From positions 1 to 36,318 of the IMG/VR virus record IMGVR_UViG_3300021963_000350: a DNA stretch of 36,318 nt; one strand, given 5' to 3'. The translations under genes were made by a program, and so were the position numbers. Under the pieces are notes generated by a model, which was not told the origin of the DNA, made no database searches, and saw only the letters and a list, made by a program, of their open reading frames with translations. Below are positions 15,201 through 30,650 of this stretch, in pieces; position 1 is the first letter of the stretch; the number at the start of each line of letters is the position of its first letter. The stretch is from a virus.

Positions 15201-16818
15201 GTATTCAACTTCAGTTGATGCTAGATTAGATGTTGTTGAAGCTACTGCATCTTTATATGTTGCATTCTCAACTTCAGTAGATAGCAGATTAGACTTAGTA
15301 GAAGCAACCGCTTCTTATTTGAATACAACTTTCTCAACATCGGTAGATAGTAGATTGGATGTAGTAGAAGCAACTACAACAACTTTAAACACTACATTTA
15401 GTAGTTCAGTTAATTCCAGATTAAACTCTTTACAATCATATACTGCAAGTGTTTCAACTTCAGTTGGATTATTAGAAGCAACCGCATCATATTTAAATAC
15501 AACATTTAGTAGTTCAGTAGATGGAAGACTAGATTCGGTAGAATCATATACCGCTAGTGTTTCAACTTCAGTTGGATTATTACAAACAACTGCTTCATAT
15601 CTAAATACTACGTTCAGTACTTCGGTAGATGTTAGATTGGATGGATTGGAAATAGAAAGTGCAAGTTTCAAAACATTTACAGGTTCAGTATTTTATCCAT
15701 TCTCAACATCAGTAGATAGCAGATTGGATTTAACTGAAGCAACCGCATCATATTTAAATACAACATTTAGTACTTCGGTAGATGCTAGATTAGATAATAT
15801 AGAGGCTTCAACTGCTTCTTTAAGTAGTTGGACTGGTTCTATATTTAATACATTCTCTACATCAGTAGATAGTAGATTAGATGGTGTAGAATATACCGCA
15901 TCTTTATTTGGTGGTGGATTGATTGCACAATTGAATGCAATTAATAACTCTACTGCATCTTTACAATTAGTAACGGCATCATTACATTCATTTACATCTT
16001 CATACTATACTACTTCGGCATCATTTGATGGTAGAATAGATGCTTTAGAACTATTCAGTTCATCGTTAAATAATACATTTGCAACTGATGCAGAATTATC
16101 AGCAGTATCTGCGGCTATCGCAGTAAGAGATGCAGGACAAGATAGTACTATTACAACATTATCTTCTTCAGTTGATGCAAGATTAGATTTATTGGAAGGT
16201 AAAGATATTATTATAAATTTAGGCGGTGATTTAAGTGGTAGTGGTGTTTCAACGGATTTAGGAACTGTTACATTGAACGCATATGTAGCAGCAGATTCTA
16301 TTGCATTAGCAACTGATACATCAGGTAGCTATGTTCATACAATATCGGGTACAACAAATCAAATTACAGTAGCTGGTTCTGGTGTAGAAAGAGCAGATAT
16401 TACATTATCTTTACCACAAAATATACACACATCAGCAAACGTACAATTCAATTCAATTGGAGTTGGAACTGCAGCATCAACAACCGCTGGTGAAATTAGA
16501 GCAACGGGAGATATTACCGCATTCTACTCATCCGATATTCGTTTAAAAGAAAATATTGTTCTAATTCCAAACGCTTTAGAAAAAGTAAAACAAATTAGTG
16601 GTAACACTTACGATTGGAAAGAAGGATATGATGAAATTCACTCTCATAAAGGAAACGATGTTGGGGTAATTGCACAAGAAATTGAACAAATACTTCCTCA
16701 AATTGTAACAAATAGAGATAACGGATTCAAAGCAGTTCAATATGAAAAAATTATTCCATTATTAATTGAAGCAATAAAAGAATTATCAGCGAAAGTTGAT
16801 AGTTTGGAAAATAAATAA
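12298..16818 (+). CDS. Giant tail fibre/spike: docking segment, beta-helix region, hendecad shaft, S74 chaperone domain
   Basis: 1506 residues, the largest gene here. Domains in order: docking segment (1-25, SIFKLRRGSGS, LEYGELYI); beta repeats, with PTRTYDLGAEGKWWRNIYV near residue 104; a right-handed beta-helix-like region from about 169 (KRLYVSPSGSDANDG) to about 690, interrupted by two 'GGxxY' beta inserts; a coiled-coil shaft about 790-1280 with a 22-residue unit FSTSVDSRLDLVEATASYLN; and a C-terminal S74 intramolecular chaperone (1411-1506). In the S74 domain SSDIRLKENI supplies the expected catalytic Ser1412 and Lys1417, so cleavage before Ser1412 should release the chaperone after trimer folding. 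The beta-helix could bind or degrade polysaccharide, but I cannot assign catalytic residues. A TATTTATA motif lies 16 bases upstream. Confidence 0.82.
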   Translation: MASIFKLRRGSGSVNLEYGELYIHSASLQYGDSNDAEVTLLPLDRQISGNVTLTGSINLSGSLSASNIHVQNNLYVSGNLYLGNETTDTITTTGEFTSHLIPNPTRTYDLGAEGKWWRNIYVNTVSASFISGSIAGIGNINEFSHSVDNRLDTLELSASLYDNAMSGSKRLYVSPSGSDANDGSDPSVPFRTIKAAVESLGNALYTNTKRYTIFVGSGEYVEQNPIAVPPGVAIVGDTLRTVRLYAANPTKDYFHTHDSNYFYGLRFLDLKHPAFAFSFPSSTATSTISGGSISTISVVHSMTGYTDGNNQDIGIIIEGPDVSGSIATATANVVGGVITQINVTHGGTNYGATEKPHISIPAPLAKRPVITTSPYIQNCSSITGPFNTSGTKVLQALPYDEATYNIDEQGAGGGIRIDGNLVHPVSPLESFVADAFTQVNQGGPGHLVINKGYAQFVSCFTTFCTYGFKVASGGFANISNSVIDFGAKGLISKTYFPQTYNTGSSLETKTSTVSGFVIDENGAGYTGSVANVTISGGGASVQATAEATVNANGSIDEIVLLTGGSGYTSQPNVTIAAPTGIGGIQATTVSGKALISGVSEMLMSLQSGSRGVDISSNMILNGVNYLVTDVAKVVGQPTQRRITTYPAPPSIATGDTINFHQLSNISTGGLVMEYVGSGVTFNALPKYGGVPIRTREINEIEPGRVFYSTVDNIGNLKIGDFFAVNQLTGEVTIDANSFNLSGLNAIGPFKRNGVAVGVVLQEVSNNTTLLNSQGLYGEDTVPTQYAVKGYIDPISSSLDARLDLVESTSSYLNTTFSTSVDSRLDLVEATASYLNTTFSTSVDSRLDTLETAATSDDDRLDALEAYSASLKTAISASGQDLIIYGNLTVQGTQTSLNVNEVFVEDKTLTLASGSATAAAADGAGIHIAGANVTMSWDNNNSRINLNKSFYANGDLSGSTLIGIGNVTSYSTSVDARLDVVEATASLYVAFSTSVDSRLDLVEATASYLNTTFSTSVDSRLDVVEATTTTLNTTFSSSVNSRLNSLQSYTASVSTSVGLLEATASYLNTTFSSSVDGRLDSVESYTASVSTSVGLLQTTASYLNTTFSTSVDVRLDGLEIESASFKTFTGSVFYPFSTSVDSRLDLTEATASYLNTTFSTSVDARLDNIEASTASLSSWTGSIFNTFSTSVDSRLDGVEYTASLFGGGLIAQLNAINNSTASLQLVTASLHSFTSSYYTTSASFDGRIDALELFSSSLNNTFATDAELSAVSAAIAVRDAGQDSTITTLSSSVDARLDLLEGKDIIINLGGDLSGSGVSTDLGTVTLNAYVAADSIALATDTSGSYVHTISGTTNQITVAGSGVERADITLSLPQNIHTSANVQFNSIGVGTAASTTAGEIRATGDITAFYSSDIRLKENIVLIPNALEKVKQISGNTYDWKEGYDEIHSHKGNDVGVIAQEIEQILPQIVTNRDNGFKAVQYEKIIPLLIEAIKELSAKVDSLENK
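14755..15320 (+). repeat. 44-bp direct repeat pair in the 1506-residue fibre gene
   Basis: Bases 14755-14798 and 15277-15320 are identical over 44 bp (starting gtagatagcagattagac). Both encode DSRLDLVEATASY within the 22-residue coiled-coil unit. The two are 522 bases (174 codons) apart and in frame. Confidence 0.88.
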
Positions 16819-16871: not shown

Positions 16872-19800
16872 ATGGCACTTAAATTTAGACGTGGGACAAC
16901 CGCACAGAAATCAGGTTCGTTAGCATTCGGAGAACCATTCGTAAACACCGATTTAAACACATTACAAATTGGTGGACCTTCCGGAGATATCACATTAGGA
17001 ACAACGGGCGAAAGCTCCGCATTTGCAGGCGTATCTATATCAGCATCATCTTTTATTAGTGGAGCCGCACTTAAAATCACAGGCAACGCAGCAATTGATG
17101 GTAACTTAACATTGGGAGGTGCAATCACAATTGGTGATGCAACCGCTGATACTGTTAACGTTGTCGCAAGTTTAAGTTCATCTTTAATCCCTTCCAACGA
17201 TAATACATTTGATGTTGGTAGAAATGATAAAAGATATAGAGCAGTTTATAGTAATACCCTAAGCGCAAGTGTATTAGAAATTGAATCTGGCAGCTGGGCT
17301 GAAGTTAGATTAAAAAATTCATCAACGGGTATAGATTATCATATCCAAAATACAGCAGGAGGAAACTTTAGTATTCATAATGCAGAAATAGGAACATCTG
17401 TATTCAGAATAGATTCTGGCTCATCGGCACAAACTTCTCACGGACATTTCTTTGGAAATTTAAATGTAAGTGGTACATTAAATACGGCAAATAATGTATT
17501 AGCTAGTTCTATTACCGCTTCAGAAGGATTTAGTGGCTCGGTAAGTGGTATAGGAAACGTTTCAGCTTACTCATCTTCTGTAAATAGCAGATTGGTAGTA
17601 GTAGAAGGTGTTTCAGCATCAGCAGCTGGAGCATTGAATAGTGTAAGTGGAGCATTTGCTACAACTATTTCTACATTGGGAGGTAATTACGCAACCGATG
17701 CAGAATTATCAGCAGTATCCGCAGCAGTAGCTGTAAGAGATGCTGCACAAGATGTATTGATTTCATCATTACAATCAAATGTAGTAAGCGCATCAGTATT
17801 TAATACATTCTCTACATCAGTAGATAGTAGATTAGATAGTGTTGAATTAGTTTCAGCATCAGCAGCATCCGCTTTAAATAGTGTAAGTGGAGCATTTGCA
17901 ATTAGAACAGCAGGTATTGATAGTACAATATCAACTTTATCTTCTTCGGTAGATAGTAGATTAGATAGTGTTGAATTAGTTTCAGCATCAGCAGCATCCG
18001 CTTTAAATAGTGTAAGTGGAGCATTTAACACAACTATTGGAAACTTAGGAAGTACTTACGCAACTGACGCAGAATTAAGTTCAGTATCAGGCGCATTTGC
18101 TACAAGAGTAGCTGGAATTGATAGTACAATAACATCATTATCAACTTCGGTAGATAGTAGATTAGATAGTGTTGAATTAGTTTCAGCATCAGCAGCATCA
18201 GCATTGAATTCATTGAGTTCAAGCGCTTCTTCGGCATACGCTAAAGTAGGTGCAGCAAATACATTTAATGGCAACCAAACAATTAGTGGTTCATTAATTG
18301 TAACACAAGATTTAGTTATTGGAGGTTCTGCTTCAATTCAGCACGTAACTTCTTCTCAACTTAATATAGCAGATAATATCATCACTGTTAATACAATCAA
18401 CCCAACCGTTAGATTTGGTGGATTGGCAGTAATTGATAGTGGTTCAGCAGGAATAAGTGGTTCATTCTTATATGATTCAGTACAAGATGAGTTTGTATTC
18501 GTACATAAAGGAGATGGTACTAACATTACATCATCTCACTTCTTAGTAGGACCTGAAACATATAATGATTTAGGTAACGAAACATATTTGTCAGCAAATA
18601 AGGTTATTAAATCAAAAGGAAACGAACATATTGTTGAATCAAACATTACTGATAATGGAACAACAATCACATTGGGTTCTAATACTTCAGTAACGGGTAC
18701 ATTGGTAGCAACCGGAACTTCATTAGTTTCCGCTTCAGCACAAATAACCTTATCTTCTACGACTGGATATTCAACATTTAGTTCATCGTTAGCAGCAACT
18801 GATGCAGCTCAGGATATTACAATTTCAACTCTATCTTCTTCAGTAAATAGTAGATTATTAGTAGTTGAGGCAGTTTCTCAATCAGCAGCATCAGCACTTA
18901 ATTCATTTAGTGCAAGTAACGCAGCAACCGATGCAACTCAAACAACTAATATAACAACTGCAACAACCGCAGCAGCAGGAGCATTCGCTTCAGCATCGGC
19001 ATATAGTGCTAGTGCAGCAGTTGTAGATGCAGCACAGGATGTGTTAATTGCATCTTTAAGAACTAATGTGGTGAGTGCATCAGTATTTACTACATTCTCA
19101 ACTTCAGTAGATAGTAGATTAGATTCAGTAGAATTGGTATCAGCATCAGCAGCTGGAGCATTGAATAGTGTAAGTGGAGCATTTGCAACAACGATAGGTA
19201 ACTTAGATAATACTTACGCAACTGATGCTAGTGTAACATCTGTATCAGGCGCATTTGCTACAACAATTTCAAATTTAGGAAGTACCTACGCAACTGATGC
19301 AGAATTAAGTACTGTTTCTGGCGCATTTGCTACAACAATAGGAAACTTAAATTCAACTTACGCAACTGATGCGGAATTAAGCACTGTATCAGGCGCTATT
19401 GCAACCAGAGATGCAGGACAAGATTCTACAATATCAACTTTATCTTCTTCAGTAGCAAGTAGATTAGTTACATTAGAGACAAAAGATATTACAATCACAT
19501 TAACAGGCGATGTGACTGGTACGGGAACAATTACCGATTTAGGTAACGTATCGTTCGCAACAACTGTAGCAGCAAATTCAGTAGCATTAGGAACGGATAC
19601 AACGGGTAACTATATGAGTGATTTAACTCAAGGTACCGGTGTAACAATTACACATACTCCTGGAGAAGGTTCAAATGCAACAATTGCAATTGGACAAGCA
19701 GTAGCAACTTCATCTGATGTTAGATTTAACTCAATAGGTGTTGGTGTGGCAGCAAGTGCAACTCCTGGTAGAATTGATGCAAGTGGTGATATTGTGGCAT

Positions 19801-20126
19801 TCTCAACTTCTGATAGAAACTTTAAAGAGAACATTACTCCAATCGAAAATCCAATTGAAAAAATCAGAAAGATTAGTGGTAACACATATGATTGGAAAGA
19901 AGATATGAAAGAGTTCCATGGTTTCGAAGGAAATGATGTGGGTGTGATTGCACAAGAAATTGAAGCAGTATTACCACAATTAGTAACAACAAGAGAAACC
20001 GGATATAAAGCAGTTAAATACGATAAATTAGTAGCATTACTAATCGAAGGTATAAAAGAACAACAAATACAAATAGAAAACCTAAAATTAGAAGTTGAAG
20101 GTTTGAAGAAACAAAAAGGGTTATAA
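16872..20126 (+). CDS. Long tail fibre with docking segment, coiled-coil repeats and S74 chaperone domain
   Basis: 1084 residues. Starts with the docking segment (MALKFRRGTTAQKSGSLAFGE). A beta module SNDNTFDVGRNDKRYRAVYS near 110-130 is paralogous to one in the 1506-residue protein. The shaft has SSVDSRLDSVELVSASAASA repeats of 43-67 residue spacing. An inserted 'VRFGGLAVIDSGS...SGSFLYDS' module (bases about 18410-18710) is paralogous to one in the 1016-residue protein. The C terminus is an S74 self-cleaving chaperone (978-1084): TSDRNFKEN gives Ser980 and Lys985 as the expected dyad, followed by ISGNTYDWKE and GVIAQEIEAVLPQLV and a helical tail. The S74 domain is closely related to that of the upstream gene, which points to duplication. 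The glycosyltransferase gene follows after 4 bases. Confidence 0.84.
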   Translation: MALKFRRGTTAQKSGSLAFGEPFVNTDLNTLQIGGPSGDITLGTTGESSAFAGVSISASSFISGAALKITGNAAIDGNLTLGGAITIGDATADTVNVVASLSSSLIPSNDNTFDVGRNDKRYRAVYSNTLSASVLEIESGSWAEVRLKNSSTGIDYHIQNTAGGNFSIHNAEIGTSVFRIDSGSSAQTSHGHFFGNLNVSGTLNTANNVLASSITASEGFSGSVSGIGNVSAYSSSVNSRLVVVEGVSASAAGALNSVSGAFATTISTLGGNYATDAELSAVSAAVAVRDAAQDVLISSLQSNVVSASVFNTFSTSVDSRLDSVELVSASAASALNSVSGAFAIRTAGIDSTISTLSSSVDSRLDSVELVSASAASALNSVSGAFNTTIGNLGSTYATDAELSSVSGAFATRVAGIDSTITSLSTSVDSRLDSVELVSASAASALNSLSSSASSAYAKVGAANTFNGNQTISGSLIVTQDLVIGGSASIQHVTSSQLNIADNIITVNTINPTVRFGGLAVIDSGSAGISGSFLYDSVQDEFVFVHKGDGTNITSSHFLVGPETYNDLGNETYLSANKVIKSKGNEHIVESNITDNGTTITLGSNTSVTGTLVATGTSLVSASAQITLSSTTGYSTFSSSLAATDAAQDITISTLSSSVNSRLLVVEAVSQSAASALNSFSASNAATDATQTTNITTATTAAAGAFASASAYSASAAVVDAAQDVLIASLRTNVVSASVFTTFSTSVDSRLDSVELVSASAAGALNSVSGAFATTIGNLDNTYATDASVTSVSGAFATTISNLGSTYATDAELSTVSGAFATTIGNLNSTYATDAELSTVSGAIATRDAGQDSTISTLSSSVASRLVTLETKDITITLTGDVTGTGTITDLGNVSFATTVAANSVALGTDTTGNYMSDLTQGTGVTITHTPGEGSNATIAIGQAVATSSDVRFNSIGVGVAASATPGRIDASGDIVAFSTSDRNFKENITPIENPIEKIRKISGNTYDWKEDMKEFHGFEGNDVGVIAQEIEAVLPQLVTTRETGYKAVKYDKLVALLIEGIKEQQIQIENLKLEVEGLKKQKGL
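17822..18199 (+). repeat. Long direct repeats inside the 1084-residue fibre gene
   Basis: A 76-bp stretch at 17822-17897 (starting agatagtagattagatag) recurs without a mismatch at 17951-18026, an offset of 129 bases (43 codons). Its first 48 bases recur again at 18152-18199. The copies encode SRLDSVELVSASAASALNSV. Such in-frame identical repeats allow shaft length change by recombination. Confidence 0.9.
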
Positions 20127-20130
20127 TTTA

Positions 20131-21129
20131 ATGTACGATGTTTATTACACCACCGCTGGAGGACCTTGGTTCAACAGCGGTGCTGATATATGGGTAACCG
20201 AATGGATAAAAGAAGTGGCACCTAACTTAGAAGTTAAGCCACTTCTTCTTTTTCATAGAAAAAAGCCAGATAATTATCAACAATTTAATATTGATATAGA
20301 CCATATATGGGAAACATCGGAAGATGAAATCATAAAGATACTAAATAATGCCAGACGTATTCACATATTACATGGTCATTATACTCCAACCAGAGCTATA
20401 CATCAAAATTTGGAAAAGATTAATTCAATTGTTTTCCATAATTTAACAAAAGTGTCTTTAATGGCACAAATGGGTAAAGATGAATATCTTCATTGGTATG
20501 GTAATTGGGAATATGAAAGCGAATTAATTAACAAAATTAAAAATAAAATATGGGTAGGATTATATCATTTCCCATATCAAACCGAAAATTTATATCACAT
20601 ACCAAATGTATATAAATTTATACATAATAAAGAACTTTCAAACTCAACGGAAATAGGATATGCGGCGAGAGTAGAGGGAAGAAAGAATGTTGAATATATG
20701 GATGGATTAGGTGGATATATTTCTACCAATACAGAAACATTCAACAAATATTATAAAAAGAAATATGGATACAGATTCGAAAAATCAAAGATTTATAAAT
20801 TTGATTTCAAATATAAAGAAAGGTTCTACGGACTTGATTGGGGAATATCTCATTCTTGCTTTGAACATGAACCATTTGGATACGGAATTTTTGAAGCAGT
20901 GGATTGGGGTAAACTTCCAATATTACACGAAAGATGGCACGTACCACTTGATTATAAATACAAAGCGATTGACAAGGAAACATTTAAGCAGACCTACGAA
21001 ACGATTTGTAACGATGATTACGAAACCCGTAAAAAAGAGTTTGAAAAACTTAAAAATTGGATGATAAAATACTTTTCAAACAAAGATGAATGGAAACAAA
21101 AACTTTTAGATATTTATAACGGAGAATAA
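20131..21129 (+). CDS. Glycosyltransferase, GT4-like (GT-B fold)
   Basis: 332 residues. The C-terminal half carries the retaining GT-B signature EHEPFGYGIFEAVDWGKLP (from residue 245), with the E-x7-E pair Glu247/Glu255 that binds the nucleotide-sugar donor in GT4-type enzymes. GYAARVEGRKN (176-186) matches the usual 'G-x-x-x-R-x-x-x-R-K' donor-site loop. The N terminus (TTAGGPWFNSGADIW) fits the Gly-rich acceptor-side loop. There is no signal peptide or membrane segment, so it would act in the infected cell's cytoplasm. It lies 4 bases after an S74 fibre gene and 11 before the Hint/LamG fibre gene, so glycosylation of virion fibres is a reasonable inference; host-surface modification is the alternative. 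Its first 125 coding bases hold two strong nested hairpins. Confidence 0.78.
   Translation: MYDVYYTTAGGPWFNSGADIWVTEWIKEVAPNLEVKPLLLFHRKKPDNYQQFNIDIDHIWETSEDEIIKILNNARRIHILHGHYTPTRAIHQNLEKINSIVFHNLTKVSLMAQMGKDEYLHWYGNWEYESELINKIKNKIWVGLYHFPYQTENLYHIPNVYKFIHNKELSNSTEIGYAARVEGRKNVEYMDGLGGYISTNTETFNKYYKKKYGYRFEKSKIYKFDFKYKERFYGLDWGISHSCFEHEPFGYGIFEAVDWGKLPILHERWHVPLDYKYKAIDKETFKQTYETICNDDYETRKKEFEKLKNWMIKYFSNKDEWKQKLLDIYNGE
20151..20182 (+). other. Nested hairpin at the 5' end of the glycosyltransferase coding sequence
   Basis: Perfect 8-bp inverted repeat CACCGCTG (20151-20158) / CAGCGGTG (20175-20182). Inside the 16-base loop, GACC (20162-20165) can pair with GGTT (20168-20171), one pair being G-T. 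It starts 20 bases after the A of the ATG. Confidence 0.6.
20210..20253 (+). other. Terminator-like hairpin inside the glycosyltransferase coding sequence
   Basis: Outer 10-bp perfect stem AAGAAGTGGC (20210-20219) / GCCACTTCTT (20238-20247), inner 6-bp stem TAACTT (20223-20228) / AAGTTA (20231-20236), then C and five T. It has the shape of an intrinsic terminator but lies in frame within the gene, around codons 27-41. Confidence 0.6.
21110..21118 (+). promoter_or_regulatory. ATATTTATA motif, candidate late promoter
   Basis: Lies in the last codons of the glycosyltransferase gene and ends 22 bases before the ATG at 21141. It is the only copy that sits inside a coding sequence, but the spacing to the next start is typical. 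Confidence 0.5.
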
Positions 21130-21140
21130 TACTAAATAAC

Positions 21141-22886
21141 ATGCCAAAAACAAATTTATCATTAGGTAATTTATACAGAGCAGTAAGTGGTTCGGTAAGA
21201 GTTGCTCAAGCAGTTTCATTAGCCGGTTTAGCAGGTTCAGCCGTAAATAGTAGTATAGCATCATTTGCTATCGATTCTGTTACCACACAATTACCAACAT
21301 ATACATATATAGTTGAATCAACAGATGAATCTGCTTCATTTAGTTTTGGTAGTGCTGGAACACTACATAGTACTAAAGTAGCAACTGTGGCTAACAACTA
21401 TACTTGCTCATTTAGTAATGCAAATTTCACAGTACCTTCTTCTACATTAGGTAGTTCACCATCTTTTACAATTAGACCCGCAGCAATTAACGTATCATCG
21501 TATTCTGAAGCTGAATCTCAATTAACAATGAAGTATGAAGATGGATTCAACATAAATGCAACGGGTTATGGTACTATATCTAATAAAACTTTATATGCGG
21601 TGGATGTATATAATACAATCAACCAACCGGATTTTTGTTTATTATTTGGAACAAAAGTAACAAAAGCAGATGGTACTGAAATAAATGTTGAAGATTTACA
21701 AATTGGAGATAGTATTAAAGCGTGGGTGCCTACAAATTTACCAGATGAATCTTTGGATATGGAATCCGAACAAGTTGAATGGAGATTTCATATGTTAGAA
21801 CAAAATGGAGGAGAAACACAAAACGTTTTGGTTTCTGATTTAGTATTTAACTTTGCTAGTGGATATTTTTCAATTAATGATGGGTTAATTAAAGCAACAG
21901 GAACTCACCCTCTTTGGGTATTTGATAACGAAATTGAAAAATACAAATTTAAATTAGTTGAAGATATTTTACCTGGTGATAAATTAGTAAAATATGAGGC
22001 TAATACTATTACAGAAATTGAAGTAACAAATATAGAAATTATAGAAGAAGATGTAGAAATTGTAACTATTAACGTAGAACAATCTGACGTTTACATTTCA
22101 AATGGTTTAATTTCTCACAATAAAGGAACAGCTACACAACCATATATCCCATCAACAGGATTAAGAATGTATGTTGACCCTTCAAAAGCTCAATCTTTCC
22201 CATCACAAACACTCCCATCTACCGGTACACCAACTGTAGACTGGTTGGATTTAAGTGGTTGGGGAACTGGTATAAGACCAAGAGCACAAGCTCCATTGGC
22301 TGCCGGTTCAAATCCTTCATATAACGCAGGAGCAACTAGAAAAGAAAAATATTACGCATTTAATGGTTCTGACCAAGCATTTTATAAAGATTCTTCATCT
22401 AATATTAATGGTGGAATATCTCAATTCAATGTAACAGCAGGTACAATTCATATGTGGGTTAGACCTACAACAACATTAGGAACTTCAACAAGAACATTGT
22501 TTGATTATAATGGATTTTATGGTATGGCTATCGAATCTACTGATAGTTCCACATTAAATAGATTAAAATTTTATTCATCAACATTGGGTGATTCGGTACA
22601 GGTAACAACATCACTTTCATCAAATGTTTGGTATTTAATATCAGTAGCATTTGGAAGTGGTACGGCTCCTCAATTCTATGTTGATGGAGTTGCCGTTGGT
22701 TCATTATCAGCATCCGCAACAATAAGCGCACCAGCATCATCTGATTATGTAGTTATTGGTGCAAATGATGGATTTTCATCATTTTGGAATGGTCAAATTG
22801 GGCCTGTATTATTTTACAATATTAAACAAACATTGGCAGAAGTAGACCAAGTATTTGATTATTTCTCACCAACATATAAAGTTTAA
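21141..22886 (+). CDS. Fibre protein with intein-like Hint domain and C-terminal LamG lectin domain
   Basis: 581 residues in three parts. Residues 1-165 are a Ser-rich beta region. Residues 166-327 are a Hint (hedgehog/intein) domain without endonuclease: block A CLLFGTKVTKADGTEINVED starts at Cys166, block B TGTH is at 253-256, and the C-terminal block DVYISNGLISHN ends in His326-Asn327. The next residue is Lys328, not Cys/Ser/Thr, so normal splicing lacks its second nucleophile; N- or C-terminal self-cleavage remains possible. Residues 340-581 resemble a LamG/concanavalin-like lectin domain (YYAFNGSDQAFYKD; GTIHMWVRP; QFYVDGVAVGSL; SFWNGQIGPVLFYN). It is probably a carbohydrate-binding adhesin that can shed or expose its lectin head. 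It stands just after the glycosyltransferase gene and before the sheath gene. Confidence 0.8.
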   Translation: MPKTNLSLGNLYRAVSGSVRVAQAVSLAGLAGSAVNSSIASFAIDSVTTQLPTYTYIVESTDESASFSFGSAGTLHSTKVATVANNYTCSFSNANFTVPSSTLGSSPSFTIRPAAINVSSYSEAESQLTMKYEDGFNINATGYGTISNKTLYAVDVYNTINQPDFCLLFGTKVTKADGTEINVEDLQIGDSIKAWVPTNLPDESLDMESEQVEWRFHMLEQNGGETQNVLVSDLVFNFASGYFSINDGLIKATGTHPLWVFDNEIEKYKFKLVEDILPGDKLVKYEANTITEIEVTNIEIIEEDVEIVTINVEQSDVYISNGLISHNKGTATQPYIPSTGLRMYVDPSKAQSFPSQTLPSTGTPTVDWLDLSGWGTGIRPRAQAPLAAGSNPSYNAGATRKEKYYAFNGSDQAFYKDSSSNINGGISQFNVTAGTIHMWVRPTTTLGTSTRTLFDYNGFYGMAIESTDSSTLNRLKFYSSTLGDSVQVTTSLSSNVWYLISVAFGSGTAPQFYVDGVAVGSLSASATISAPASSDYVVIGANDGFSSFWNGQIGPVLFYNIKQTLAEVDQVFDYFSPTYKV

Positions 22887-22951: not shown

Positions 22952-25183
22952 ATGGCAGAAAAATTAGTATCACCAGGAGTTTTCACTAAAGAGAACGACT
23001 TATCATTTTTACAACAAGGTGTAGCAGAAATAGGAGCGGCATTCGTTGGTCCATTCTTAGAAGGACCATTAGTTCCAACAATTGTTAATTCTCAAGCAGA
23101 TTTAGAAACATGGTTTGGTAAAGCCGATGGAACATATTATACACCATTAGCAGCTCAAAGTTATTTGAGAGAAGCAGGTACTGCAACTATTTGTAGAGTA
23201 GCTGGTGTAGGTGGATATGTAGAAACAGCCCCATTGTTGTTAACTGTACAATCTGGTTCAGTAACACAATCAGTAGGTATTTTATTTAATAGTGTATTAG
23301 CATCTAACGCTGGTTTCGTAGGTACAACTTTGGATACTGATGATGAAGGAGATTTCTTATTATCAGGCTCTAACGCTGGATTATTATCAGCTTCTTTAGA
23401 TGTGGAAGATACAAATGATATCGAAGCTGTATTTGGAACATCTCCATTTGGTTCTAAAAAACCTTATGTATATGGATTCTTTAAAAATACATCAATCACT
23501 TTTGATGCAAATGCAAGTTCATCTGTAACTGTATTAGGTAATCAATCATTTACATTTGATGCACAGGAAGCATTAACTCCTATGTTCAAATCACAACAAA
23601 TTAGTGGTGAGAGATATGACCTTTTCCAAATTGAAACAATCGGAGCAGGTAACGCAGCAAACAACAAAATTAAAATAGGTATTTCAAATATTAAAGCAGC
23701 TGGTTCAGTAAATGGTACTGATTATGGTACATTCACTGTAACTGTAAGAGCATTTGGAGATACAAATAAAAAGAAGAGTGTATTAGAAACATTCGCAAAT
23801 GTAAACTTAGACCCTAATTCTCCAAACTATATTGCAAGAGTAATTGGTGATAGAAAATTATCTATTGCAAACGATGGTAAAATCACAACATCAGGCGATT
23901 GGGTAAATCAATCTAAATACATTAGAATAGCAAACTTAAATACCGCAGCTCCTGTACAGGCAGTTCCATTTGGACATGAAAAATATAAATTACCAATTTC
24001 AGCATCTACATCAGTAAGTGCTAATGTTCCTGTTGTTACATTTGTAACCGCTTCAGCAACACAATTTGGTGGTATCGATTTGGATGGTAATGTAGATAAC
24101 AAAATCTATATGAAACCAATTCCAAACGGAGCAAGTGCTGGTTCAAACGCAGTATTTGGATTAGATGTAGCAAATGGTGGTTCTTTATCAGTAGGTTCTT
24201 CAGCAGCACAATTCGTTGTAGCATTCCAAGAAGGATTTGATGGTATGAACCCAGCAACTCCAATTTACAAAGGAGCTGATATTACCGGAGGAAACACACA
24301 AGGATTTAACTTATCATCTTCTACTTCTTCAGGTTCAGTAGCATATATGAAACACATCAACGCATTATCAAATGCAGATGAGTGGGATATCAATATGATT
24401 GTTGTGCCAGGCGTAACTAAGAATGACCACTCTTATGTTCACACAGCAGTTGTTGATATGGTTGAACAAAGAGCAGATGCGTTCTTCATTACTGAAATGG
24501 CAATAGCAGGTGTTGGAATATCTTCAACAAACACAAAAGCAGGTGAGTTAGATACTAACTACGCAGCAACTTACTACCCTTGGGTTAAGACAATTGATAT
24601 TAACACTAATAAGTTAGTAACTGTTCCACCTTCAGTATTGCTACCAGCAGTATTTGCAGCAAACGATAGAGTAGCAGCAGAATGGTTCGCACCAGCTGGA
24701 TTGAATAGAGGTGGATTAATCGGAGCAGTAGATGTATTAGATAGATTAACTCAATCCGAAAGAGATACATTATACGAAGCAAAGGTAAACCCAATCTGCC
24801 AGTTCCCTGGACAAGGTATTGTGGTATGGGGACAAAAGACCTTACAAGATAAACCATCAGCATTAGATAGAATCAACGTAAGAAGATTATTATTAACTGT
24901 TAGAAAGTATATCGCTTCAACTTCTAAGTATTTAGTGTTTGAGCAAAATACATCAACAACGAGAAATAGATTCTTAAATATCGTTAATCCTTATTTAGAA
25001 TCAATCCAACAAAGACAAGGTTTATACGCTTTCAGAGTAGTAATGGATGAAACTAACAATACACCAGATGTAGTTGATAGAAACATTATGAAAGGCGCTA
25101 TTTACTTACAACCAACTAAGACAGCTGAATTCATTCAAATTGATTTCAATATCTTACCAACTGGGGCAACTTTTAACGGATAA
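22952..25183 (+). CDS. Contractile tail sheath protein, gp18-like
   Basis: 743 residues. The N-terminal signature LVSPGVFTKENDLSFLQQG followed by IGAAFVGPFLEGP is typical of T4-like sheath proteins. The C-terminal region has LLLTVRKYIASTSKYLVFEQ and the closing strand block AIYLQPTKTAEFIQIDFNIL, which form the conserved inner domain gripping tube and neighbours. It is longer than T4 gp18 (659 residues), with the extra length probably in the outward-facing middle part (about 100-450), which is variable in this family. The tube gene follows 48 bases later, the invariant order 18-19. Codons are biased to aac/ttc, consistent with an abundant protein. Confidence 0.95.
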   Translation: MAEKLVSPGVFTKENDLSFLQQGVAEIGAAFVGPFLEGPLVPTIVNSQADLETWFGKADGTYYTPLAAQSYLREAGTATICRVAGVGGYVETAPLLLTVQSGSVTQSVGILFNSVLASNAGFVGTTLDTDDEGDFLLSGSNAGLLSASLDVEDTNDIEAVFGTSPFGSKKPYVYGFFKNTSITFDANASSSVTVLGNQSFTFDAQEALTPMFKSQQISGERYDLFQIETIGAGNAANNKIKIGISNIKAAGSVNGTDYGTFTVTVRAFGDTNKKKSVLETFANVNLDPNSPNYIARVIGDRKLSIANDGKITTSGDWVNQSKYIRIANLNTAAPVQAVPFGHEKYKLPISASTSVSANVPVVTFVTASATQFGGIDLDGNVDNKIYMKPIPNGASAGSNAVFGLDVANGGSLSVGSSAAQFVVAFQEGFDGMNPATPIYKGADITGGNTQGFNLSSSTSSGSVAYMKHINALSNADEWDINMIVVPGVTKNDHSYVHTAVVDMVEQRADAFFITEMAIAGVGISSTNTKAGELDTNYAATYYPWVKTIDINTNKLVTVPPSVLLPAVFAANDRVAAEWFAPAGLNRGGLIGAVDVLDRLTQSERDTLYEAKVNPICQFPGQGIVVWGQKTLQDKPSALDRINVRRLLLTVRKYIASTSKYLVFEQNTSTTRNRFLNIVNPYLESIQQRQGLYAFRVVMDETNNTPDVVDRNIMKGAIYLQPTKTAEFIQIDFNILPTGATFNG

Positions 25184-25231: not shown

Positions 25232-25720
25232 ATGCCAGAAGTATTAGAGTTTGATAAAATGTTCTATACCAACTTTGAACCAAAGTTAGGTAACAGATTT
25301 ATAATGGAAATCGACGGTATAGAATCATATATGATAAAAACGGCTAACAGACCAACTTTCACTTCGGAAGTAGTTGAATTGGACCATATCAATGTAAAAA
25401 GAAAGATTAAAGGTAAATCCACTTGGGATGATGTAACTATCACTCTTTATGACCCAATTGTACCATCAGGTGCACAGCAAGTTATGGAGTGGGTTAGACA
25501 ATCACATGAATCTTTAACAGGTAGAGATGGATACGCAGCTTTCTATAAGAAAGATATTACTTTCTATTTGTTAGGACCAGTTGGTGATAAAGTTGAACAA
25601 TGGACTCTTAAAGGAGCATTCATTTCTTCAGCAAACTTCGGCGAATTGGATTGGGCTTCAAATGACCCATTATCAATAGAATTAACTTTAAGCTATGATT
25701 ACGCAATTCTTGAGTACTAA
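25232..25720 (+). CDS. Tail tube protein, gp19-like
   Basis: 162 residues, almost the length of T4 gp19 (163). It has the family pattern: an N-terminal FEPKLGNRFIMEIDGIESY, a middle VTITLYDPIVPSGAQQVMEW, and a C-terminal beta block SANFGELDWASNDPLSIELT. It forms the hexameric rings of the inner tube beneath the sheath. It sits between sheath and tail chaperone genes and is followed by a strong terminator. Confidence 0.95.
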   Translation: MPEVLEFDKMFYTNFEPKLGNRFIMEIDGIESYMIKTANRPTFTSEVVELDHINVKRKIKGKSTWDDVTITLYDPIVPSGAQQVMEWVRQSHESLTGRDGYAAFYKKDITFYLLGPVGDKVEQWTLKGAFISSANFGELDWASNDPLSIELTLSYDYAILEY

Positions 25721-25842: not shown

Positions 25843-26655
25843 ATGGAACAACAAAACGTAGAACAACAAGTTACACGAGGATTAGGAAATACGCAACAAC
25901 CAAAAACATTTCCTTTCCCAACAGAAGTTATTACTCTACCATCTAAAGGATTGGTTTACCCTGAAACATCTCCATTAGCAAAAGGAGAAATCACAATTAA
26001 ATTAATGACAGCAAAAGAAGAAGATATTCTTACTTCGCCTAATTTAATTAAAAAAGGAATTCAATTAGATAAATTATTGGAATCCATTGTGGTAGAGCCA
26101 GGTGTTAACATCAATGATTTGGTAATTGGTGATAAAAATGCTATTTTGATTACATCTCGTATATTAGCATTTGGACCTGAATATGTGGCTAAAATTGTTG
26201 ACCCATTCGATTCGGAAGAAGTTGAAGTTAGTATAGATTTAACTCAAATAAAAATAAAAGAAATAGATGAGTCTGTATTAAACAGACAAAATGAATATAG
26301 TTTTGTTTTACCTATTTCAAAAACACCAATCAAATTCAAATTATTGACTCACGGTGATGAAATTGCAATTAATAAAGATGTGGAAGCATCTCAAAAAACT
26401 CTAAAAACATCAAATGAAATTACAACAAGATATAGAAGAATGATTGTTGAAGTTGATGGTAATAGGGAGTTTGGATATATTAGTAATTTTGTATCTAATA
26501 GATTATTAGCAGGAGATTCAAAGGCTTTGAGAAAAGAAGTATCTAAAATTACGCCTGATTTAGACCTTAAATTTGACTATACATCCCCAATAACAGGTGA
26601 AACGGAGGCACTAAGAATTCCCTTTGGGATTGGGTTTTTTTATCCTGCCGACTAA
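25843..26655 (+). CDS. Tail assembly chaperone / baseplate protein, gp26-like (frameshift donor frame)
   Basis: 270 residues of the T4 baseplate (gp26-like) family. The recognisable part is the N-terminal block: FPFPTEVITLPSKGLVYPET, then KGEITIKLMTAKEEDILT, LDKLLESIVVEPGVNINDL and GDKNAILITSRILAFG. In phages of this type the protein is part of the tape measure/baseplate hub assembly machinery. It ends GIGFFYPAD. Just before the stop, at 26632-26642, lies GGG followed by seven T, where ribosomes could move into the overlapping frame of the next segment. Most product would be the 270-residue form, a minority the extended form. No TATTTATA motif precedes it; the tube terminator does. Confidence 0.85.
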   Translation: MEQQNVEQQVTRGLGNTQQPKTFPFPTEVITLPSKGLVYPETSPLAKGEITIKLMTAKEEDILTSPNLIKKGIQLDKLLESIVVEPGVNINDLVIGDKNAILITSRILAFGPEYVAKIVDPFDSEEVEVSIDLTQIKIKEIDESVLNRQNEYSFVLPISKTPIKFKLLTHGDEIAINKDVEASQKTLKTSNEITTRYRRMIVEVDGNREFGYISNFVSNRLLAGDSKALRKEVSKITPDLDLKFDYTSPITGETEALRIPFGIGFFYPAD

Positions 26656-26860
26656 TTACTCGGTCACTCTCCATCAAAAGATTTTTCAGATGGTTTATTA
26701 TGCTAATGGTGGATTTAATTGGCATGATGTTTACTATATGCCTATTAAACTTAGAGAGTTCTATTATAAAGAGCTTGCAAAGGCTAAAGATTCTGAAAAA
26801 GAACAAATGGATGCAGCAACTCGAAAATCCAATTCATCTTCTAAAGTAAGAAGAAGATAA
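26615..26860 (+). CDS. Tail chaperone C-terminal extension expressed by frameshift (acceptor frame)
   Basis: Open frame bounded upstream by a stop at 26612-26614 and overlapping the gp26-like gene by 41 bases. It encodes ILPTNYSVTLHQKIFQMVYY, NGGFNWHDVYYMPIKLREFY and a Lys/Glu-rich tail ending SSKVRRR. The 'GGFxWxDVYxMPxxLRxFY' pattern recurs in the second part of T4-like tail chaperones. There is no convincing start: TTG at 26624 has no initiation context, and the first ATG (26689) would cut into the conserved part. Expression as a fusion with the upstream frame is therefore the best reading. The role by analogy with lambda G-GT is to coat the tape measure during tail assembly. Confidence 0.72.
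   Translation, partial: EFPLGLGFFILPTNYSVTLHQKIFQMVYYANGGFNWHDVYYMPIKLREFYYKELAKAKDSEKEQMDAATRKSNSSSKVRRR
26632..26642 (+). other. Probable programmed frameshift site (GGGTTTTTTTA)
   Basis: Seven consecutive T (26635-26641) preceded by GGG and followed by A, 14 bases before the zero-frame stop and inside the 41-base overlap of two frames. tRNA-Phe on TTT (26638-26640) can re-pair perfectly after +1 (26639-26641) or -2 (26636-26638) movement. Either gives access to the downstream frame, with fusion products of 338 or 339 residues. A -1 move would not reach that frame. Confidence 0.7.
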
Positions 26861-26905: not shown

Positions 26906-27172
26906 ATGTCAAAAAAAAGAATGTTAGTAGAGCTCGCTTTATTTGATAAATTAGTAGGTTCATTTTTTAAAGCTAAGGGCGATAATAAAGAAGAAGAATG
27001 GATTTCTAAAATAAGAAAAACAAATCCACAACTTGCTGATTTATGGGCAAAATGGGATGCTGATATGAATCGAGTTTTAGCAATAGGTAAACAAGGTGTA
27101 GAGAAATTTACAAAAGATTTACCAAAAGAAAAAGAGTCTAATATTGATAGAATCATTAGACAATACAATTAA
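26906..27172 (+). CDS. Small helical protein before the tape measure gene
   Basis: 88 residues starting MSKKRMLVELALFDKLVG. It is mostly helical and basic-acidic mixed, with no membrane segment, and I do not recognise it. An upstream in-frame TTG (26870) would add 12 residues encoded by the TATATTTATA motif region and is rejected in favour of the ATG. Its position between the frameshifted chaperone and the tape measure suggests another tail-assembly chaperone or a hub component. Residues 38-50 (RKTNPQLADLWAK) form the most distinctive helix. Confidence 0.65.
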   Translation: MSKKRMLVELALFDKLVGSFFKAKGDNKEEEWISKIRKTNPQLADLWAKWDADMNRVLAIGKQGVEKFTKDLPKEKESNIDRIIRQYN

Positions 27173-27194: not shown

Positions 27195-30100
27195 ATGGCT
27201 AAAAGTACAGTAAAACAGGACCAAGCCGCTTTAGGTAAAGAATTTGACTCACTTTCTAAATTGCAAAATGAGTGGGATAAACTATTGGATAAAAAATCTA
27301 AAGGTAAAAAATTCGATGAAGAGAGATTAAAACAATTAGAGAAAGAATTCGGTACATATAATAAATTAGCTGGTAAAGTAGATAGAATAGCTGATACTTT
27401 TAATTCTTTAAATAAAAATGTAGCCGAACACAACAAACGTTTAGAAGATTCGATAGAAAATTACGATGATATGGATGATGCTTTAACAAGCATTGGAAGT
27501 AGAATCGGTAAAAATGATGCTGCATATCAGGGTATAAACAAAAAGATTGAAAAATCTAAAGAAGCATTAGGACAAATATCTTCAATTTTACAAGGGCAAA
27601 ATCAATTAAACGAAAGACAGGAAGGAAACATTCTAAAAGCAGCCGAATCTTATAAAGGATTTTTGGTTGATGTTGCCGATGCCAGTAAAAAAATAGACCA
27701 AGGAAACATATCGCAACAAGAATACAATCAAATCATAAAAGAGAGTTATGAAAATTTAACCGGAATGGTTGATTTGATTGATGATTCTACTGAAGCCGGA
27801 AAACAATTGAAAGCACAATTTCAGGCTATGGCTCAGGAGAGTAAATCGTTCTATGATGCATCTATGAAATCTCTTGGTGCAACTCAAAAATTAGATGACA
27901 TAATGGGTTCATTCAGCGGTATTCCTGCTATGGGTGAATTAAATACATTATTAAAAACTAATATAAAAGACACAGTTGCATTTAAAGCAGCTGTATTCGC
28001 ATTAGGTGCAGCATTGGGCAAAGCGGCAATGGATTATTTTGGCGCTCCAATTAAAACTGCGATGGAGCAGTATAAACAAAGTGAACAAAATAGAATTGAT
28101 ACTGAAGCTAATATTGGTAAATTGCAAATAGATGCACAATCTATACCAAAACAAATTGAACAAGAAAGATTAGAGAATAGAATCAATTCAGAAGGTGAAA
28201 TTGCTAGATTACAACAAGAAGCAGCATTCGCAGGAGCCAAAGCGGCTATTCAATTTAGCGCTCAAATGCAGAGTGGAGCAGCCGCATTTGAAAGAGCAGC
28301 AAAAACTGCATTGTTTGGTAACAAAATTGGTTCAGTAGGGTATGGTGCAGCACAATTACAATTAGCAGGAATTAGTGCAGACCAAATAGCTAGTGGAATG
28401 GAAGCAGCATCAGCTGCAACAGGTAGAATGCCATCTGCAAGAGTTGGTGCAGATATGGCTATTATGGCTGAAAGAACAGGTGCATCGGTTGATAATATAG
28501 CATCAATCAATGAGATGTTCCAAAGAATGGATGGCGTATCGGAATCAACTGCTATGAACCTTTCCGAAGGTTTAAGAAATATGGCTGACCAAGCTAAGAT
28601 TGGATTGGGTGGATTGATGAGAGAAATTGCAGATGCATCTAAAGATGCACTATCATATCAGATTAAATCTGGTCCTGCTTTAGCAAAGCAAGTAGCATAC
28701 GCACAATCATTGGGAGTTAGTTTCGGAGATATAGCTAAGGCTGGTAAGAGTATGGTTATGAACTACAAAGATAGTATCAAAAACGAAATGCAATTATCAG
28801 CTATGTTAGGTAAGAACGTAGACCTATCAGAAGTTAGAGCTAAGTTTGCTAGTGGTGATACCGCTGGTGCTATGGAATCATTAAAAGCACAAGGATTAGA
28901 CCCTGCTCAAATGGATATGTTCCAGCAAGATGCGCTATCACAGGCATTAGGTGGAATGGATTTGAGTTCTTTACAAAAAATAGCAACAAAACAAGGAGCG
29001 CAAGTTGGTGGATTAAAAGCTGGTAATGCTGGAGCAGGTAATCAGGATTTCTTATCAAGAACTCAAGCAGCAGAAAGTGCATTAAATCAAAAACAAACAT
29101 CTATATCCGCACAAACAGCTATATTAGATGCTCAACTATCTCAAAAAATTGCCGATTCTTATTTAGCATCTGGAGATTATCAAAAGTTAAAAGAAAACCA
29201 AAACAAAGCGGCACAAGAAGCTGAGAAATTGGCAGGTGCTATGAATGAAGCTTGGATTAAAAGTGATGCATTTGCTAAACAAATGACGGAAAGTACAAAA
29301 TTAGGATTTGTAACCGGATTATTAGAAAATATTGTATCAGGTATAGCAATGCTATTAGGCGGAACTATATTAAGTAAGATGATGGGTGGAGGTGGACTTA
29401 TGAAATCCATTGGTGGAATGATACCTGGATTAGGTGGAGGAGGAGCAACCGCAGCATCTGCAGCATCAGCCGCACCTGCAGCTATGGGAGCAGGAGGACC
29501 AGGCGCCGCACCAACCGCAAGACCTGCTGGAGGCGCAGGAGGTGGTGGATTTACAAAAGGATTAACTGATTCAGTTAAAAATACATCAAAAGTAATACAA
29601 AGTGTAATCAAAGAATTAGGCGCTGTTTTAAAAACAGGTGTGGATATGATTATGCAGATTGTAAATAAAATGGCATCGGGAGTTATGACCGCTTTTAATA
29701 CGGTAATGAATGGATTATCAAAAGCATCATCAACGTTACCAACTATTTTAGGTAATTTAGGTAAAGCCGTTGGTGCTTTCTTTAGCGGAATGACTACGGG
29801 GTTAACAACATTTGCTATGGCTATGGCAGCTCCAACACCATTATTTGGATTGCCTGTTGGATTAATTGTAGTTGGTATGGCAATGGGGTTAGCTCAAGCA
29901 TTATCAATAGCTGGCCCTGGTATTCAAAAATTAACACCACTATTATTAGGTTTAGCATCTATAATTGGTGATACCTTTGTGAAGGTATTACAAACCGCCG
30001 GTCCTATTATAAAAGAAATATTTAATGGAATTGCAACCGTTATTAATTCTATGGGTAATGCGGTATCTACTATAATAAATTCAATCACATCAAGTATATC

Positions 30101-30650
30101 TGGCTTATCATCATTAGACCCGGTTAAAATGTTAGCAGTAGCAGGTGGTATTGCTGCTATGGCTGGTGCAGTTGCGTTGTATGGTGGCGCTAGTATATTA
30201 GGTGCAATTGGTAGTTTCTTTGGAGGTAGTGTATTTGATGACTTAAAAGATATATCGTCATATGCAGACCCAATAATGGCAACAGCCGTAGCAGTAGATG
30301 CATTAGCAAACGCATTTGATAGATTAAGTTCTATCGATGTATCATCTTTAAAGGATATTCCTTGGGGTGATATGGAAGATTTTGCATCAGAAGGTGGTAA
30401 ATTTGTATTAGCATCATCGGGTGGTGGAAGTTTTGCACTTTCAAAAGAAACTACCGATAATATTAAAAAAATGGCTACGAATACCGAAGTGATGGCTAAA
30501 TTAAATAATACCATCGCAAAATTATTAAAAGAAGGATTCTTTGGTACTGAATCATCTACAATGAAATTATATATAGATGGTAAAGATGTTTCTACTTCTA
30601 TGAAACGTTATCAATCTAACACACAAAATCAGGACCCAAAGAAGAAGTAA
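27195..30650 (+). CDS. Tail tape measure protein
   Basis: 1151 residues that set tail length and line the tube. N-terminal about 250 residues are charged and coiled-coil (EFDSLSKLQNEWDKLLDKKS). A middle Ala/Gln-rich helical part follows (GAAQLQLAGISADQIASGME). A Gly/Ala/Pro-rich linker lies at about 732-785. Hydrophobic segments lie at about 703-730, 866-904 (PLFGLPVGLIVVGMAMGLAQ) and 978-1010 (MLAVAGGIAAMAGAVALYGG). Hydrophobic segments in the C-terminal half are usual for tape measures that insert into the host membrane at DNA ejection. Size, position after the chaperone pair and composition make the call secure. T4 gp29 has 590 residues, so a longer tail than T4 is expected if the length rule holds. 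Confidence 0.9.
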   Translation: MAKSTVKQDQAALGKEFDSLSKLQNEWDKLLDKKSKGKKFDEERLKQLEKEFGTYNKLAGKVDRIADTFNSLNKNVAEHNKRLEDSIENYDDMDDALTSIGSRIGKNDAAYQGINKKIEKSKEALGQISSILQGQNQLNERQEGNILKAAESYKGFLVDVADASKKIDQGNISQQEYNQIIKESYENLTGMVDLIDDSTEAGKQLKAQFQAMAQESKSFYDASMKSLGATQKLDDIMGSFSGIPAMGELNTLLKTNIKDTVAFKAAVFALGAALGKAAMDYFGAPIKTAMEQYKQSEQNRIDTEANIGKLQIDAQSIPKQIEQERLENRINSEGEIARLQQEAAFAGAKAAIQFSAQMQSGAAAFERAAKTALFGNKIGSVGYGAAQLQLAGISADQIASGMEAASAATGRMPSARVGADMAIMAERTGASVDNIASINEMFQRMDGVSESTAMNLSEGLRNMADQAKIGLGGLMREIADASKDALSYQIKSGPALAKQVAYAQSLGVSFGDIAKAGKSMVMNYKDSIKNEMQLSAMLGKNVDLSEVRAKFASGDTAGAMESLKAQGLDPAQMDMFQQDALSQALGGMDLSSLQKIATKQGAQVGGLKAGNAGAGNQDFLSRTQAAESALNQKQTSISAQTAILDAQLSQKIADSYLASGDYQKLKENQNKAAQEAEKLAGAMNEAWIKSDAFAKQMTESTKLGFVTGLLENIVSGIAMLLGGTILSKMMGGGGLMKSIGGMIPGLGGGGATAASAASAAPAAMGAGGPGAAPTARPAGGAGGGGFTKGLTDSVKNTSKVIQSVIKELGAVLKTGVDMIMQIVNKMASGVMTAFNTVMNGLSKASSTLPTILGNLGKAVGAFFSGMTTGLTTFAMAMAAPTPLFGLPVGLIVVGMAMGLAQALSIAGPGIQKLTPLLLGLASIIGDTFVKVLQTAGPIIKEIFNGIATVINSMGNAVSTIINSITSSISGLSSLDPVKMLAVAGGIAAMAGAVALYGGASILGAIGSFFGGSVFDDLKDISSYADPIMATAVAVDALANAFDRLSSIDVSSLKDIPWGDMEDFASEGGKFVLASSGGGSFALSKETTDNIKKMATNTEVMAKLNNTIAKLLKEGFFGTESSTMKLYIDGKDVSTSMKRYQSNTQNQDPKKK

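Follow-up and report, generated by a model that had tools for sequence, protein, structure and literature searches.

How are two overlapping reading frames located upstream of a tape measure gene in a T4-like phage translated and, if a ribosomal frameshift joins them, in which direction does the ribosome slip? Frameshifting of tail assembly chaperone genes is described as widespread in long-tailed phages, with the exception of T4. The stretch of DNA analyzed here (36,318 nucleotides, hereafter the window) makes up a virus record of metagenomic origin (36 kb). It carries a T4-like tail module, and its major capsid gene is gp23-like. Downstream of the sheath gene (22952-25183), all on the + strand, are found a tail tube gene of the gp19 family (25232-25720; PF06841, 7e-11; phrog_4542, 5.5e-33), directly 3' of it ORF A (25843-26655), then a small ORF (26906-27172) matching no family above chance, and a candidate tape measure gene (27195-30650), assigned from phrog_1272 (4.5e-05), its position and its length. 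ORF A is thus placed between a gp19-like tube gene and a tape measure candidate, as expected for T4-like chaperones. Searches of the window against Rfam and for tRNA genes gave no match and no tRNA gene, respectively.

ORF A (270 aa) matches PF12322 with 31.6 bits (curated cut-off 24.5; 1.7e-07) and phrog_150 (7e-11), and both gp26 and gp51 of T4 match these same two models. This supports the gp26-like label given to ORF A in an earlier note on this DNA, which was made from the letters alone. In the match of T4 gp51 a C-terminal extension follows the part common with gp26, and gp26 and gp51 have been assigned as the short (TAC-N) and the long (TAC-NC) tail assembly chaperone of T4 (Vladimirov, Gautam and Davidson 2022, Virology 566:9-15, as relayed in PMC10885494 and PMC12846349). 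The AlphaFold model of ORF A (pLDDT 88) had its best matches in a viral library with the SP-15 hub subunit and with T4-like baseplate hub assembly proteins. Its best PDB match, the HK97 tail assembly chaperone 2ob9, was weak (E 0.91, prob 0.54). ORF A ends in RIPFGIGFFYPAD, its last codons being GGG ATT GGG TTT TTT TAT CCT GCC GAC TAA.

ORF A shares its last 41 bases with a second frame, which is open over 26615-26860. The overlap holds GGG-TTTTTTT-A (26632-26642), with the T7 in phase as TTT TTT T (26635-26641), and the second frame is in +1 (equal to -2) phase relative to ORF A. The earlier note had described the frames and the T run in the same way, and its statement that only a +1 or a -2 shift joins them holds. 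Read from the slip site, the second frame (ORF B, 26636-26860, + strand; FFILPTNYSVTLHQKIFQMVYY...) has no start of its own and would form the C-terminal extension of TAC-NC. The predicted +1 fusion (25843-26860, + strand, 338 aa) has the junction IPFGIGFF followed by ILPTNYSVTLHQK.

We consider it very probable that the locus makes a tail chaperone in two lengths, with TAC-NC produced by a +1 shift at TTT_TTT_T beside TAC-N. Most ribosomes would finish ORF A, giving the short form, while in a minority the peptidyl-tRNA-Phe on the second TTT (26638-26640, the presumed P-site codon) would slip one base forward onto the TTT at 26639-26641. These ribosomes would read on into ORF B (ATC CTG ...), giving the long form. 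By analogy with G and GT of lambda, many copies of TAC-N and few of TAC-NC may coat the tape measure, recruit tail tube subunits and then leave. We infer the occurrence, the +1 direction and the rate of the shift and the part played by each element; the conserved frames, slip site and upstream elements and the selection on ORF B are visible in the sequences themselves.

The main comparison covered 186 loci of relatives, with a nonredundant set of 158, and later sets brought the total to about 200; the loci are mostly metagenomic contigs, and shuffled-column tests do not fully remove their relatedness. ORF B was found in the +1 frame in 182 of the 186 loci, and exactly TTT_TTT_T was kept in 144. 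Among 80 relatives with 48–81% identity, TTT TTT T was in phase in all but one (L040, TTC TTT T). All 13 loci from genome bins, mostly of Flavobacteriales (29–64% identity), were +1, and the same phase was seen in distant loci (35–50% identity) binned with Flavobacteriales, Halobacteriovorax and others. Two exceptions among the 186 (L181 and L186) have ORF B in another frame with its own ATG just 3' of the ORF A stop; the other two gave no frame reading, L188 being cut by the contig end. The comparison confirms that the overlap and phase pattern is far from chance.

Two relatives, one of the 186 and L213, have a T8 run in which codon 3 is TTC and the frame relation is the same, and it is therefore the codon phase that matters rather than the run length. 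The earlier note had expected eight Ts to change the frame relation, which these loci contradict. T7 alone is not the signal either, since a second in-phase T7 in the window, at 33118, is without such an arrangement of frames. Frame B opens as little as one codon 5' of the slip site in some loci, and the ORF A stop codon has its end 18–33 nt 3' of the first T; the position of the shift is thereby bracketed. The first TTT codon is conserved in 148 of the 158 nonredundant loci. A +1 shift at codon 2 does not strictly need it, and weak pairing in the E site is a possible reason for its conservation.

ORF B is under purifying selection as a protein, and only in its own frame, where pN/pS was 0.24; when this DNA was read in the two remaining frames, the values were 1.35 and 0.86. 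This, together with the +1 phase in the relatives, substantiates the impression in the earlier note that the second frame is conserved. A short form and a long form with a C-terminal extension is the arrangement of T4-like chaperone pairs, and ORF B, conserved and selected in frame, agrees with it. No match to the extension was obtained in Pfam or PHROGs. Its likeness to the C-terminus of T4 gp51 is marginal (3.7 bits; 1 of 200 shuffles scored as high), and the extensions of S-CAM8, Atu_ph07, LR756511 and L193, in which the homologous frame is in -1 phase, scored above all 2600 shuffled controls against an ORF B profile. In the Flavobacterium phage immuto (L082, NC_055915; 4697-4943) ORF B was missed in the public annotation, and in Mel-JY01 (L081) it is annotated as a separate hypothetical protein.

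The 158 nonredundant slip sites fall mainly into three classes, TTT_TTT_T (127 loci), TTT_CTT_T (18) and TTC_TTT_T (8), and five further classes, TTC_TTT_C, TTT_TTT_C, TTT_TTT_A, TTT_CTA_T and TTC_CTT_T, have a single locus each. On the protein tree, TTC_TTT_T has at least two origins (L040, inside the T7 clade, and L171-L185), and TTT_CTT_T, the site of the immuto clade, arose inside the T7 group. TTC_TTT_C was found in L084 and L226, TTT_TTT_C in SP-15, and UUC_UUU_CGU in phage GXN1. At every YTT_T and TTT_C site the peptidyl-tRNA can re-pair one base forward, so that re-pairing in the P site on an overlapping +1 codon (TTT_T, CTT_T or TTT_C) is possible in nearly all loci. In LR756508 (TTT_CTA_T) and LIS04 (TTT_TTT_A) it is possible only at codon 1. 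The same P-site codons serve in established +1 sites: CUU_U, used in the immuto clade, is that of prfB, encoding RF2 (PMC8710568), and UUU_CGU, present in GXN1, is that of influenza A PA-X, proven by mass spectrometry (PMC3498833); elsewhere in the family the codon is UUU_U.

A +1 shift is favored because the C-interrupted sites keep +1 re-pairing while most of them bar both a -2 shift and slippage of the polymerase. The direction would then be a +1 ribosomal shift at a P-site YUU_U or UUU_C in nearly the whole family. The most serious competitor, at a small probability, is a ribosomal shift of -2 at the T run, of the kind seen in phage Mu or with the arterivirus nsp2 signal, which would add one Phe. 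It leads to the same frame relation, codon 2 re-pairs perfectly on an uninterrupted T7, and one clade has a downstream stem. In the TTC_TTT_T loci (8 nonredundant, two origins), however, it would place tRNA-Phe on UCU with a mismatch in the middle position, and it is equally unfit for TTC_TTT_C, whereas +1 fits both; in the TTT_CTT_T class, re-pairing onto UUC would be poorer, yet not impossible. For the window's own T7, on which a -2 shift could take place, we infer +1 from its kinship with these loci. The junction peptide predicted for the window is IPFGIGFFILPTNYSVTLHQK for +1 and IPFGIGFFFILPTNYSVTLHQK, with one extra F, for -2. Slightly less probable still is slippage of RNA polymerase on T7, in which transcripts one T shorter would encode the fusion in frame. 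The loss of one T does give the right frame, and the homopolymer is exact in 144 of the 186 loci, but it is interrupted in others; runs broken to T3 or T4 (TTCTTTT, TTTCTTT, TTCTTTC), on which the polymerase would slip poorly, keep the overlap and the frame relation, and such slippage would leave the phase-specific codon conservation and the upstream RNA elements unexplained. The choice between +1 and -2, which the earlier note had left open, is in this way narrowed in favor of +1 by the substitution pattern of the slip site.

That ORF B is a separate gene, translated from a start codon of its own or by ribosomes that re-initiate once past the ORF A stop, we regard as a little less likely again. 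T4 does use two genes, ORF B of L181 and L186 has its own ATG, and TTG codons at 26624 and 26630 are candidate starts, the only ones 5' in frame B in the window. Nevertheless, in 51 of 157 loci frame B contains no ATG, GTG or TTG between the point where it opens and the 14th codon after the slip site, in agreement with the earlier remark that the frame lacks a good start; no start position is conserved among the 157, and the conservation of ORF B begins only at the slip site (FF[TG]L). A homopolymer sequencing or assembly error, or a decayed gene, has a negligible probability. The metagenomic origin of the window leaves room for it, and the earlier note had named an error in the T run as a possible refutation. 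However, about 200 independent contigs share the run and the phase, as do the genomes of isolates (RM378, Mel-JY01, and immuto with TTT_CTT). This comparison excludes such an error as the source of the frame relation, and the purifying selection on ORF B speaks against decay. The comparison also lends strong support to the central claim of the earlier note, a programmed shift joining tail chaperone frames 5' of the tape measure.

At most known +1 sites the A site holds a stop codon or a rare codon. In the window the corresponding zero-frame codon is TAT, and in most loci it is TGG, TAC or TAT, with TGG and TAC used 7.3 and 9.1 times per 1000 codons in the window; a codon that is neither a stop nor clearly rare counts against +1. 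A slip at the next codon, the proline codon CCT, was considered and rejected: RM378 has AAT there, and CCT is therefore not a shared site.

Inspection of the sequence upstream of the T run revealed two elements in most clades. An SD-like GGAGG is located 31 nt 5' of the first T in the window (26604-26608, + strand). Among the 158 nonredundant loci its offset is -31 in 86, -28 in 22 and -30 in 7, and the motif is almost absent elsewhere in the preceding 300 nt. Where GGAGG provides a Glu codon, GAG is used in 95 of 102 cases despite the preference for GAA. The immuto clade retains GGAGG too, but reads it in a different phase, as Gly-Gly; the motif is therefore kept at the RNA level. Between GGAGG and the T run, at -18 to -5, is a hairpin, in the window ATTCC-CTTT-GGGAT (26617-26630, + strand; 5 bp including one G-U), which ends 7 nt before the presumed P-site codon. 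Compared with synonymous recodings, the hairpin region is more stable (-2.0 kcal/mol, se 0.17); in segments farther 5' the difference is -0.2 to -0.4. At least four of the five pairs form in 118 of 158 loci, compared with 19–40 at shifted positions. The pair -16:-7, the only one formed by two third-codon positions, is Watson-Crick in 79 loci where 53 are expected. Of its 16 double changes on the tree, 6 preserve the pairing, compared with 0–3 in control pairs. Covariation thus lends the hairpin moderate support. In L171-L185 its register is shifted by one, with Ala/Thr replacing Gly (TACCG-ATTG-CGGTA).

Downstream of the slip site, folding energy showed no clear peak across the 158 loci. Only one clade, which is without GGAGG (L060, L062, L065, L068, L073 and L075-L077), has a 6-bp stem-loop there; it is placed 5 nt 3' of the T run, 12 nt from the first T, and two of its pairs show compensatory changes. 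A candidate downstream stem in the window (CCGA...TCGG) was dropped, as it is not conserved in its clade. The upstream GGAGG and hairpin probably tune the shift in most clades and the downstream stem in one.

An SD-like element is located upstream in both prfB and the loci described here, but in prfB it is 3 nt from the slip codon, whereas here it is at -31 with a hairpin beside the E site in between, and the A-site stop codon of prfB is absent. At this distance GGAGG is too far away for SD action of the prfB type unless the hairpin shortens the path. A hairpin adjacent to the E site has been reported to stimulate +1 frameshifting in a 70S system, mimicking the SD duplex (PMC6321510). Bacteroidia ribosomes occlude the anti-SD, and +1 sites of prfB are still kept in 72% of the species checked (PMC8710568). 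Tentatively, the distant GGAGG, the E-site-adjacent hairpin and YUU_U may constitute a class of +1 signal in which, in Bacteroidota, the hairpin replaces the SD duplex of prfB or brings a distant SD near, and which may have displaced an ancestral -1 signal at the same T run while the product was kept.

The locus resembles the T4-like chaperones in family (PF12322, phrog_150), in position before the tape measure and in having a short and a long form; T4, however, has a short gene and a fused long gene, and here there is one locus in +1 phase at TTT_TTT_T. A -1 site, GTTTTT, has been reported for chaperones of Vandenendeviridae in a study (PMC12846349) that also refers to poly-T sites of the -1 type in T4-like phages. 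Cyanophage S-CAM8, Agrobacterium phage Atu_ph07, LR756511 and L193 carry T_TTT_TTC, at which the homologous frame lies in -1 phase; the canonical X_XXY_YYZ arrangement does not apply to the 182 loci with ORF B in +1 phase. Judging from the tree, whose deep branches are long and whose root is of unsure placement, -1 and +1 were probably exchanged at least once. There are thus at least four routes to the same chaperone pair: a -1 shift, a +1 shift, a short and a fused long gene, and adjacent separate ORFs. The last is seen in L181 and L186, a natural loss of the frameshift inside the TTT_CTT_T clade, where the ATG of ORF B lies a few nt past the ORF A stop; ORF B is out of phase in both, and in L181 the slip site is degenerated.

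In lambda (gpG/gpGT) and P2 (E/E+E'), too, a short and a long chaperone arise from a frameshift late in the first frame, before the tape measure, but the mechanism there is -1 tandem slippage on a heptamer rather than a +1 slip in the P site. The proteins are related to ours only distantly if at all, HK97 being the best, weak, fold match in the PDB. The Mu chaperone reaches the same +1/-2 frame by a -2 shift, which the C-interrupted sites disfavor here. A +1 shift is known from Listeria phage PSA and is predicted for the chaperone of the haloarchaeal myovirus HSTV-2 (PMC5009743), likewise in phage structural or tail genes; in PSA, though, the capsid and tail-shaft genes are the ones concerned and the slip is on a proline codon, and the families and sites differ from those described here.

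A large environmental group of T4-like phages, mostly linked to Bacteroidota, appears to keep the chaperone frameshift with its direction reversed, at the homologous site, relative to T4-like relatives with a -1 shift. An opposite direction at a homologous site would imply that slippage can be reversed without loss of the product. The earlier note had considered a +1/-2 event in such a phage an uncommon variant. Chaperone frameshifting as such was already known, including -1 poly-T sites in T4-like groups and, as a prediction, +1 in a single haloarchaeal myovirus; what is new is that the direction has switched and that upstream elements are conserved. Neither these two nor +1 at YUU_U in a large clade was found in the literature searched, most subscription journals lying outside it. 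The series of TTT, TTC and CTT at the two slip codons amounts to a natural mutagenesis of a +1 site, and GGAGG with the hairpin offers a concrete test case for +1 stimulation on ribosomes with an occluded anti-SD. On the practical side, ORF B can be overlooked or labeled a separate hypothetical gene.

The tail-fiber genes of the window show some further features. Two long fiber proteins (12298-16818 and 16872-20126) carry C-terminal Peptidase_S74 intramolecular chaperone domains and many SVDSRLD-type repeats. Inside the fiber cluster, a 332-aa ORF (20131-21129), for which Pfam gave no match at E 0.01, resembles a glycosyltransferase by eye. A 581-aa ORF (21141-22886) has a Hint/intein-like segment (a weak PF14890 match, below the cut-off) and, after it, a lectin domain of the LamG-like type (PF13385), and is possibly a self-processing structural protein.
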